This document shows positions 37,708 through 41,624 of a stretch of 41,624 nt of DNA, piece by piece. Position 1 is the stretch's first letter. Each line of letters begins with the position of its first letter. Source of the stretch: Phycisphaerales bacterium (GTDB lineage Bacteria > Planctomycetota > Phycisphaerae > UBA1845 > PWPN01); NCBI GenBank assembly GCA_012729595.1, contig JAAYCU010000250.1:1-41624 (forward strand), in the 5' to 3' direction. The notes below the pieces were generated by a model, which saw nothing but the letters and a program-made list of their open reading frames with translations, had not been told where the DNA came from and searched no databases. A program made the position numbers and the translations under genes.

Positions 37708-39060
37708 TTACTCCGCCAGCCCCAAGACCGCTTCGCGAAACGCGTCCCCCCGCTGCTCGTAGTTGATGAACATGTCGTAGCTCGTACACGCCGGCGAGAG
37801 TACGACCACGTCGCCGGGCCGGGCGAATTCGGCCGCCTTATGTACGGCCGCCGCGAAATCACCGGCCACCAGCGCGGCCCGGCCGGCACGCTCACCCGCA
37901 TCAAGATAACCGCACACCAGATCGTACAGCGCCGGCCCGGTCGCTCCATAACACACCGTAGCCTTGGCCCGCTCGGCCAGCAGACGGGCGAGGGTATCGA
38001 ACGGCATGCCTTTATCTCCCCCACCGACCATGACCACCGGCGGTTTCTCGAAGGCCTCGACCGCGATCTGGGTCGACTCGGGCGTGGTAGACTTGGAATC
38101 GTTGTAATATCGCACCCCGGCCCGCTCCGCGACGAACTCCAGACGATGAGGCAATCCAACAAAGCCGGCCAACCCTTGAGCGATACACGCGTCATCCACG
38201 CCAAGCTCACGGGCAACGGCCACGGCGGCGGCAGCATTGTTTTGATTATGCCGACCTGGAACCTGAATATATTGCCGAAAATACGGGTCAAATTCGTATC
38301 GTGCCAAGCGCGAGGCCGCCCCGACACGGACAACACGCTCGGCCAGTTCCTCATCGCAACCATGAACGAAAACCACATCCTCCGGCCGTTGAAAACGCAC
38401 GATGTTCATCTTCGCGTCCGCATACGCCTCGAAGGTACCGTGCCGATCGAGATGATTGGGCTTGATGTTGGTTATGACGGCGCGCGACGGGCTCCATTTC
38501 AGGCGGGCCAGATCGTCCAGTTGAAAGCTCGACAGTTCGAGCACGACGATATCGTCGGCCGCCAAGTTCTCCAACTCATCCAGCAGCGAACAGCCGATAT
38601 TCCCCCCCACCCAGATACGACGCAATGTGCCGGCCAACTCCGCCGCCGCCAGAATCGCTCCCAGCATGGCGGTTGTGGTGCTTTTTCCGGCCGACCCGGT
38701 AATCCCCACGATCCGCCGCGCCGGGCAGTGCTGAATAAACAGGTTCATCTCGCTGGACAAGGGAATATCGCGAGCAATCGCCTGTTGAACAAAATCCGAC
38801 TTGTCCTTGGGCACCGCCGGGCTGACCACCAGCAGGTCGCAGCCTTCCAGGTCGGCCGTATCATGCCCGCCCAGATGAAACGTCACCGGCAACCCGGCCA
38901 GTTGGGCCACGCTGTCGGCCAGCTTGTCGGCCGGGGCCATATCCGTGACCGTTACTCTCGCTCCCCGCCCTACCAGCCAGCGGGTTACCGCGATCCCCCC
39001 GCCGAACCGCCCGAGCCCCATGACCACCACGTTTGCATCCTTTATATCCAAGTTAATCAT
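37708..39060 (-). CDS. murD: UDP-N-acetylmuramoyl-L-alanine--D-glutamate ligase
   Basis: MurD (450 residues) adds D-Glu to UDP-MurNAc-L-Ala in peptidoglycan synthesis. The N-terminal Rossmann-like domain opens with VVVMGLGRFGGG. The ATP-binding loop GSAGKSTTT is at 122-130 (family usually GTNGKST). The C-terminal domain has HRLEFVAERAGVRYYNDSKSTTPEST (in part) and LSPACTSYDMFINYEQRGDAF, typical of MurD. Together with flgI and flgH this indicates a diderm with peptidoglycan. No other mur genes are in the window. The ribosome binding site is weak. The 5' end touches the divergent small gene at 39059. Confidence 0.95.
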   Translation of the reverse strand: MINLDIKDANVVVMGLGRFGGGIAVTRWLVGRGARVTVTDMAPADKLADSVAQLAGLPVTFHLGGHDTADLEGCDLLVVSPAVPKDKSDFVQQAIARDIPLSSEMNLFIQHCPARRIVGITGSAGKSTTTAMLGAILAAAELAGTLRRIWVGGNIGCSLLDELENLAADDIVVLELSSFQLDDLARLKWSPSRAVITNIKPNHLDRHGTFEAYADAKMNIVRFQRPEDVVFVHGCDEELAERVVRVGAASRLARYEFDPYFRQYIQVPGRHNQNNAAAAVAVARELGVDDACIAQGLAGFVGLPHRLEFVAERAGVRYYNDSKSTTPESTQIAVEAFEKPPVVMVGGGDKGMPFDTLARLLAERAKATVCYGATGPALYDLVCGYLDAGERAGRAALVAGDFAAAVHKAAEFARPGDVVVLSPACTSYDMFINYEQRGDAFREAVLGLAE

Positions 39061-39690: not shown

Positions 39691-39990
39691 ATGTTCAAGA
39701 ATGTTCTGGTATTGTCGGCCTCGGCGGGCGCCGGGCACCTGCGGGCGGCCCAGGCGATCGAGCGGGCCTTCACCGAGCTGGGCGCGACCCGCGAGTTCCG
39801 TCATATCGACGCTCTGGAATACACCAACAAGCTCTTCCGCAACCTCTACTCCAAAAGCCGCGCTCGGCGTGCTCAGCGCCGAATAACAACCACGCGTCAA
39901 GATATCACCCCCCAAAAACGCTTGACAGGCCCTCTTGCCGATAGTAACGTTATTCCAGAGGCCGATGCTGTCCGTAAATGGAGATTTGTG
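39691..39990 (+). pseudogene. 5' fragment of an MGDG-synthase/MurG-like glycosyltransferase gene
   Basis: Residues 1 to about 55 (MFKNVLVLSASAGAGHLRAA and the following HIDALEYTNKLFRNLYSK) match the N-terminal MGDG_synth domain of diacylglycerol glucosyl/galactosyltransferases, with the glycine-rich SAGAGH loop. After about 39855 the similarity stops and the frame runs on as arginine-rich nonsense to 39990. Family members are about 370-400 residues, so some 85 percent is missing. No ribosome binding site is obvious. The break coincides with the change to the cassette-like, more AT-rich DNA, so the gene was probably cut by recombination. Confidence 0.75.
39881..39955 (+). other. possible degenerate attC-like site
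   Basis: GAATAAC (39881-39887) and GTTATTC (39949-39955) are perfect 7-base complements. Inside, CGTCAAG (39895-39901) and CTTGCCG (39934-39940) pair with one mismatch, separated from the outer arms by 7 and 8 bases. This is the order of R''-L''-L'-R' boxes of integron attC sites, although the spacers are longer than the usual 5-6. In one frame a TAA (39884-39886) lies in the left arm, as a cassette gene end would. TTGACA (39922) within it with TAACGT 17 bases on could be the promoter of the next gene. Confidence 0.3.
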
Positions 39991-40039
39991 TAGAATAAGA
40001 AGTTATGCCCCTTCAGCCGCATCGCCCTCGGAGCGAACG

Positions 40040-40714
40040 ATGTCAAGCGCGCTCGCTGAACTTCTCGATCACCTCCGTTCAGCTGACTTGAACATGGCGG
40101 CCTTCGAGTTCGTCACAGAACTCAGGGACGGTGTTTACCCGAAGGAAATGCAACAGGCACTCCAACTGTTCACTACACTCCCTTGCGCAGAAACGGGTGT
40201 CATCCTCATTGCCGAATGCCCCGAAGCCGCCCAGATCATTGCCCTGTCGAATAGAGGGTTTGCCCAAAGTCTCCCCAAAGATCTGCGCGGACCGAAGTTC
40301 GACAAGCTGGACAAATGGATGGCGTCGTTTGATCAAAATCAAAAGGCGTGCAAAGCGATCCACGAATTCTTGCTGAATGGTGCCACCAACGGGACGATCT
40401 CAATTGGCTTCCATCGTATGCGCAATCAAAAAATACTTTTCGATCGATTATCCATGATTGGCATCCGCAAACGCTTCTTAAAAAACGGTCGCCAATTCCT
40501 GCGCGATAAGATTACTTGCGATGCATCGGCGTTTCGTTCCGTTGTCGATCTGATCTGCATTCACGGGGCTGACGGTCGTCGAGAACGCTTTTGGAACGCC
40601 CTCGGTGCCGAAGTTGGTCCGCAATTGCACGTACAATCCGAGGTTCAATACGATTTATCGATTAACGCGAACGGGTTCGCTCAATTGGTCGATCAGGTTA
40701 CCAACGGGGTATAA
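40040..40714 (+). CDS. unrecognised protein, possible cassette gene
   Basis: The product is 224 residues from ATG 40040, with GGAG 6 bases upstream; earlier in-frame starts (TTG 39935, ATG 39965) lack one. It is soluble, with helical segments (ALAELLDHLRSADLNMAAFEFV in part, FDKLDKWMASFDQNQKACKAI in part) and no signal peptide, membrane helix or known catalytic motif. The C-terminus (QYDLSINANGFAQLVDQVTNGV, in part) is unremarkable. Base use is more AT-rich than in the flagellar or nqr genes. The stop TAA (40712-40714) lies inside the left arm of an attC-like element, and GTTATGC occurs both 38 bases before the start (40002-40008) and just after that element, which fits a mobile gene cassette. 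Confidence 0.7.
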   Translation: MSSALAELLDHLRSADLNMAAFEFVTELRDGVYPKEMQQALQLFTTLPCAETGVILIAECPEAAQIIALSNRGFAQSLPKDLRGPKFDKLDKWMASFDQNQKACKAIHEFLLNGATNGTISIGFHRMRNQKILFDRLSMIGIRKRFLKNGRQFLRDKITCDASAFRSVVDLICIHGADGRRERFWNALGAEVGPQLHVQSEVQYDLSINANGFAQLVDQVTNGV

Positions 40715-40798
40715 CAATTGCTGGACCAGAGTTGCCGATCTGGTCGGAATTGGACGGTGCGCTAACTGGCGGCGACCTGGTTAGCTTGGTCGTTATGC
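40709..40798 (+). other. attC-like recombination site
   Basis: The outer box GTATAAC (40709-40715) pairs with GTTATGC (40792-40798) over 7 bases with one wobble. Next come unpaired spacers of 4-6 bases. Then GCTGGACCAG (40720-40729) pairs with CTGGTTAGC (40777-40785) except for one extra G on the left arm, like the extrahelical base of L''. The interior of about 47 bases is partly self-pairing (GCC/GGC). Total length 90. The preceding gene's stop codon is within the left box and the next gene starts 15 bases after the right box. These are the hallmarks of integron attC sites. The right box departs from GTTRRRY by one base. Confidence 0.6.
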
Positions 40799-40813
40799 GT
40801 CTGGAGGTTTCCG

Positions 40814-41624
40814 ATGAATCTATTCAAAAAGCTCTTCGGTAATTCGCAAAAGAAGGTCGAGCATGACAGGCTCGTGCCGTTACTGAACGGAATCGTGCGG
40901 CCCCTGCAGCACACTGCCGTTGAACAGATCAATTTGGCACTCCGGCACATCCCCGAAAGAGACGGCCAAGGACGCTTTATGCTATTGCTCAGGCACGTCT
41001 GCTTGGCCTCTGTTATCGACAGGCTGAACGGTATCAAGTGCCCACCAATGGGCATATCCAATGCATTCAAGGCATTCGCTATTTCTCAGTGGGATCGGCC
41101 GCCAGGCATGAACGTCGATTCCGTACACAAGATATTTGAAAGGAGAACCTCCATGGTTTCGGATGATGTGAAAACTGCCCCAAAACGGAACCTGATGTTC
41201 GAGCTTAGTACACCGGCAACCATTGCGCTATTCGTTGTGGTCGGTGTCTCCGGAATTATGCTGCTCCTGAAGGTCGGAGCCGGGATTGTCAAAGAAGCCC
41301 ACGAGTGGCTTGGATTAGCCTTTGTGCTTGTTGCATTCCTTCATGTGCTCCGTCATTGGCAGGCAATGACACGCCATTTTCGAACTCGTCTGTTCTGGGC
41401 TAGTTCTCTGATCGTGGCAATCATAACGATCGCTTTCATGGAACCGTCTGCTGGAACCGGACATGGCAATCCGATGTTCGCCGTTGTCGGAGCGGTAACC
41501 ACAGCCCCCATCGAGCAGGCTGCTCCGGTGCTGGGCAGCACGCCGCAAGAGTTAATCGCCCAACTTGAAGGAGCAGGCATAAAGGTGGAGAGCCCAAGGC
41601 AAAGCCTTCAAGAAATAGCCAACC
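40814..41624 (+). CDS. unknown N-terminal part in frame with a DUF4405-like membrane protein (runs off the window)
   Basis: One open frame runs from ATG 40814 (GGAGG 6 bases upstream) to the window end, at least 270 residues. Residues 1-113 (MNLFKKLFGNSQKKVEHDRL onward) are soluble, helical and unrecognised. From M114 (ATG 41153) it reads as a small membrane protein: helix PATIALFVVVGVSGIMLLLKV, then a histidine-bearing helix HEWLGLAFVLVAFLHVLRHW, then ASSLIVAIITIAFM, which looks like the DUF4405 haem-binding two-helix type, with an exported tail ending in a PQELIAQLEGAGI motif. A strong AAGGAG at 41140-41145 precedes ATG 41153, so the DUF4405 gene may be independent and the upstream part a truncated gene joined in frame. 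Confidence 0.6.
   Translation, partial: MNLFKKLFGNSQKKVEHDRLVPLLNGIVRPLQHTAVEQINLALRHIPERDGQGRFMLLLRHVCLASVIDRLNGIKCPPMGISNAFKAFAISQWDRPPGMNVDSVHKIFERRTSMVSDDVKTAPKRNLMFELSTPATIALFVVVGVSGIMLLLKVGAGIVKEAHEWLGLAFVLVAFLHVLRHWQAMTRHFRTRLFWASSLIVAIITIAFMEPSAGTGHGNPMFAVVGAVTTAPIEQAAPVLGSTPQELIAQLEGAGIKVESPRQSLQEIAN
41140..41155 (+). promoter_or_regulatory. internal ribosome binding site and start of the DUF4405-like gene
   Basis: AAGGAG at 41140-41145, seven bases, then ATG at 41153. This is stronger than most ribosome binding sites in the window and lies in the middle of the longer open frame at 40814. It favours a separate start for the membrane protein. Confidence 0.5.

Follow-up and report, generated by a model that had tools for sequence, protein, structure and literature searches.

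The contig analysed here ends, with a probability of about 0.9, within an integron gene-cassette array that holds one complete cassette and a next one running off the contig. The window, by which we mean the whole stretch of 41,624 nucleotides, is one entire contig (C235) of a 4.12-Mb genome that is 97% complete and assembled in 406 contigs. Its right end at 41624 is the contig end, so that no downstream sequence can be read. The preliminary description of this DNA had proposed an integron cassette bearing a true attC site and cargo of no known family. Three lines of evidence support this core reading: attC covariance models, the cassette setting of the sole relative found for the cassette gene, and another contig of the genome that also carries attC. 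The features are listed in Table 1.

Table 1. Features at the right end of the window, with the basis or a remark for each
Feature	Position	Strand	Basis or remark
MGDG-synthase-like glycosyltransferase, first 56 codons, truncated	39691..39858	+	last recognisable chromosomal gene before the array
Second element of the preliminary description	39881..39955	+	rejected as attC
Left core site GTTATGC, putative cassette start	40002..40008	+	sequence
Complete gene cassette (predicted), 790 bp	40003..40792	+	second base (T) of the left core through first base (G) of the right core
Cassette gene, 224 aa, no known family	40040..40714	+	TAA 40712-40714 in R''
attC (by sequence)	40709..40798	+	R'' 40709-40715, spacer 4, L'' 40720-40728 (extra G), centre, L' 40778-40785, spacer 6, R' 40792-40798
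First 113 codons of the post-attC ORF, putative start of the next cassette's cargo	40814..41152	+	ORF list
DUF4405 (cytochrome b561-like membrane protein) portion	41153..41624	+	PF14358, E 6.4e-8

The attC site behind the cassette gene

Integron integrases act on the folded bottom strand of attC, and the outer boxes of attC follow the consensus RYYYAAC..GTTRRRY, with complementary R'' and R' boxes and a GTT core. The 90-base element at 40709-40798 has this architecture, and the preliminary description of its boxes, spacers, extra base and stop-codon overlap holds. R'' (GTATAAC) and R' (GTTATGC) pair at six of seven positions and each departs once from the consensus, while the spacers read AATT and TTGGTC. 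L'' GCTGGACCA pairs with L' TGGTTAGC, one of the pairs being G.T, and has an extra G at its fourth base; the extrahelical base lies in L'' (GCT[G]GACCA against TGGTTAGC). Together, the R and L boxes form 13 of 15 pairs. The stop codon of the 40040 reading frame lies within R''. The 16 bases at the right end, AGCTTGGTCGTTATGC, are identical to the attC end at L046:4733-4799, which belongs to an IntI-bearing array.

A crude box-and-pairing scan was indecisive, since 40709-40798 was tied with another site in the window, and we therefore collected attC sites and built covariance models. For the first model, the sites were taken from loci of the phylum with an integron integrase (TIGR02249), which is present in 74 of 392 phylum genomes. 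Model R1 was built from 32 aligned attCs from these loci, and model R2 from 37 attCs of the same order, including the C262 site of the present genome; 40709-40798 was in neither training set. A covariance search of the kind suggested as a check, run here over the window, ranked 40709-40798 first with both models. With all filters off, R1 gave 19.5 bits (E 0.0056) against no more than 9.3 bits elsewhere in the 41.6-kb window, and R2 gave 29.7 bits (E 7.4e-6) against 11.6 bits for the runner-up. Outside likely attC sites, the best scores were 12.2 for R1 and 13.4 for R2 (93 kb of relatives' chromosomes). Most attCs of the order's list score about 28-61 bits, well above the 19.5 bits that R1 gave here. 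An Rfam search returned no relevant family.

Alternatively, the element could be an inverted repeat that arose by chance, or a terminator-like hairpin behind the 40040 gene. The tie in the crude scan, a free fold that is not attC-shaped and the E-value of R1 alone (near 0.5 if taken over the whole genome) would lend some weight to this reading. We consider it very improbable, given the E-value obtained with R2, the last 16 bases shared with the attC of an IntI-bearing array, and three further features that fit an attC: the position of the stop codon within R'', the additional base in L'' and the cassette setting of the sole relative. Judged by its sequence, 40709-40798 is a genuine attC site.

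For its bottom strand, whose folding had been suggested as a check, the attC fold is possible, with 13 of 15 pairs, but it is not the preferred one: folded alone, the strand favoured another structure, and the computed probability of the attC-shaped fold was ~4e-4 compared to ~0.5 for three comparison attCs. Given this low probability, recombination activity may be low, and integrases may encounter here a weak substrate or one in decay. Single-strand folding was of little use as a test for attC, as the attCs of C262 and of G418 folded no better than shuffles.

Boundaries, flank and cargo of the cassette

GTTATGC occurs at 40002-40008 and at 40792-40798, and these are the sole two copies on the forward strand of the window; both boxes that had been named as bounding the 40040 gene are therefore present. 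Recombination by IntI cuts between the G and the TT of the core site (G/TTATGC), and excision of the interval 40003-40792 is predicted from the two core sites. In the proposed mechanism, the bottom strand of attC would be extruded as an imperfect hairpin, whose R and L stems and bulged base an IntI-type tyrosine recombinase would recognise. A cut between G and TT of GTTATGC would then lead to excision as a 790-bp circle or to joining to another attI or attC. We infer that the attC at 40709-40798 would still be able to recombine and that this would depend on an integrase supplied in trans from elsewhere.

The left boundary of the cassette was recognisable as neither attI nor attC, and no match of R1 or R2 ended at the left core. 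The sequence upstream of this core may be an attI, a decayed attC or a secondary site. A second, looser attC had been placed at 39881-39955. Its outer boxes are indeed perfectly complementary, but seven such pairs at such distances occur in the window, and its scores (9.3 bits, E 1.8 with R1; 11.6 bits, E 0.49 with R2) are at the level of unrelated sites. The inner boxes of this element and of a longer version, 39881-40008, were unconvincing, with scores at noise level, and both were rejected as attC.

It is possible but less likely that the cassette is a decayed remnant, that is, a once mobile cassette now non-recombining and kept as a chromosomal gene. Both of its core sites are intact and have the same sequence, the pairing of R and L is nearly complete (13/15) and the 40040 reading frame is intact; these features stand against the below-typical model score, the low folding probability, the failure to find an integrase and the unrecognisable left boundary, all of which decay would fit.

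On the chromosomal side, five relatives share the gene order as far as murD (37708-39060), and the conservation ends at 39060. The product of 39691-39858 is 74% identical to residues 3-56 of a relative's intact gene, and the remainder of the gene was not found in the genome. The break, which lies right after RNLYSK, may be due to insertion of the array, to a deletion or to assembly. The copy in G403 (L070, G403:C162) has an internal deletion that begins after the same residue. The GC content falls at 39860, and the shift in base composition noted earlier holds: 39861-41624 has 52.5% GC compared to 58.2% in the rest, and none of 381 equal-sized windows was as low.

The 224-aa protein was described as belonging to no known family, and searches of Pfam, NCBIfam and PHROGs gave no match, while its PADLOC match was non-significant (E 0.02). 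Close relatives of the gene were absent from plasmids, genome_contigs and viral_contigs. A predicted structure had a mean pLDDT of 36 and was not used. Among 397 genomes of the class, a single relative was found, in G418, with 31% identity over 100 aa. It starts 11 bases past a 33.8-bit attC, which is the place expected for a cassette gene. Homologues in stable chromosomal contexts had been named as evidence that would speak against the cassette; the sole relative adjoins an attC instead. A gene for an FRG-domain protein precedes the attC upstream of this relative (L122:314-1129, G418:C87).

The next ORF starts 15 bases after the right box, at 40814, as had been stated. Both cargo proteins were thought to belong to no known family. 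This holds for the 40040 product and for 40814-41152, which had no Pfam or PADLOC match, and close relatives of 40814-41153 were absent from genome_contigs; it does not hold for 41153-41624, which matches DUF4405. The DUF4405 portion is in frame with the 40814 ORF and is cut off by the contig end. It may be a separate gene, with the ATG at 41153 as start codon and a Shine-Dalgarno site of its own. The DNA of 41141-41624 is 97% identical to G393:C323:142-625 (L069), from another genus of the family. The match starts 12 bases upstream of the DUF4405 start codon, off any attC core site; the DNA upstream of it is unrelated, and no attC was seen on C323. Recent transfer, a mosaic or chimeric contig ends may account for this match. 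In G644, a more distant DUF4405 homologue is flanked by two weak attC-like sites on the same strand, which were the two best-scoring ones of the search there; this context loosely suggests DUF4405 as cassette cargo.

Other attC sites in the genome and the search for an integrase

Contig C262 carries a canonical attC (41.4 bits with R1) 43 bases from the contig start and, 870 bp further downstream and equally oriented, a weaker one (15.0 bits with R1; 17.8 with R2). Between them (G000:C262:43-1059, L078) lie two short unknown genes of 142 and 95 codons, the second of which ends in R''. This pair of sites indicates that the genome holds cassette arrays; synteny gave no support for C262 as the continuation of the array in the window. 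A candidate on another contig, C63:151-202 (G000, L079; 18.7 bits with R1, 13.0 with R2), was rejected as it is without a proper R' box. It has attC-like R'' and L boxes near the contig start and is perhaps a decayed attC. For a 13-base attC-end pattern searched in the whole genome, one-mismatch matches were no commoner than in a reversed control, and a third exact match, on C388, was not an attC by either R1 or R2.

The window had been said to contain no integrase, and none over the cut-off was found in its genome: there was no TIGR02249 match at that level in the genome as assembled. This absence is not final, because the assembly is 97% complete. Partial matches to the integrase profile on C207 and C227 omit profile positions about 183-235, and below-cut-off matches of this kind occur in all 14 control genomes. 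For these two reasons, the recombinases on C207 and C227 are taken to be of XerC/D type.

A strict CALIN has two or more attC sites spaced by less than 4 kb and no integron integrase, and IntegronFinder by default asks for at least two attC sites. The preliminary description of the array as a CALIN stands as regards the missing integrase and would, in the strict sense, call for a second convincing site: the window contig has one convincing attC and ends within the array, in an assembly of 406 pieces, while C262 has two sites 870 bp apart, the second weak. A complete integron comprises intI and an adjacent attI, and no integron integrase was found in the assembled genome. A CALIN is compatible with these findings since an integron integrase is found neither in the genome nor in the rest of the family.

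A complete integron (integrase, attI and array) may instead have been split by the assembly, its integrase gene remaining unassembled or unbinned. We regard this as possible but unlikely. The 406 contigs, the breaks of both attC-bearing contigs (C235 and C262) within or beside an array, the occurrence of integron integrases in 74 of 392 genomes of the phylum and in 3 of 114 of the order, and the overstatement of CALINs in draft assemblies (PMC9024848) would all suit a split; against them stand the 97% completeness of a genome without an integron-integrase match over the cut-off, and the lack of an integron integrase in all 12 other genomes of the family, though three of these (G403, G396 and G394) carry attC sites.

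Comparison with known integrons and the pattern in the order

CALINs occur commonly in bacteria and in archaeal metagenome-assembled genomes (MAGs) (PMC9668308, PMC9024848). In bacteria they are reported to be more abundant than complete integrons, part of their frequency in MAGs stems from fragmentation, and mobilisation of their cassettes in trans is possible (PMC9668308, PMC9024848). Integrons in Planctomycetota have already been described (PMC9668308), and a Planctomycetes-specific attC model has been published (PMC8352920); the preliminary description took the chromosome studied here to be planctomycete-like. CALINs and Planctomycetota integrons are thus already known, and what is new here is a further instance, whose cargo has an unknown function. 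It records integron cassettes for a family in which none of the 13 genomes searched yielded an integron integrase, and it adds cassette genes for which hardly any relatives are known; general knowledge of integrons is unchanged.

Like a CALIN, the cassette in the window combines an attC with unknown cargo and no integrase on the contig or in the genome, but the contig carries one attC before its end compared to the default of at least two in IntegronFinder. The sedentary chromosomal integrons of Planctomycetota have the same attC plan (GCCTAAC..GCTGCAGC..GCTGAGC..GTTAGGC in the sites collected), whereas no integron integrase or attI was found here. Class 1 integron attCs of the aadA type also share the plan R''-spacer-L''-centre-L'-spacer-R', the additional fourth base of L'' and spacers of about 5 and 6. 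Unlike these, the attC in the window is chromosomal, has 90 rather than about 60 bases, is without known resistance cargo and has a centre without one dominant stem-extending hairpin.

Across the order, attC sites were found in 25 of 114 genomes and an integron integrase in three (G457, G474 and G489); 23 of the 25 genomes with attC are without an integron integrase. The true imbalance is perhaps smaller, as many of the assemblies are fragmented. Arrays without an integrase might be the rule in this order because integrases of other community members move the cassettes in trans, or because a recombinase missed by the integron-integrase model moves them, an explanation that we think improbable. 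The imbalance offers a small and checkable case for the origin and persistence of integrase-less arrays. The genomes G496 and G501 carry 14 and eight attC sites, respectively, both without an integron integrase.
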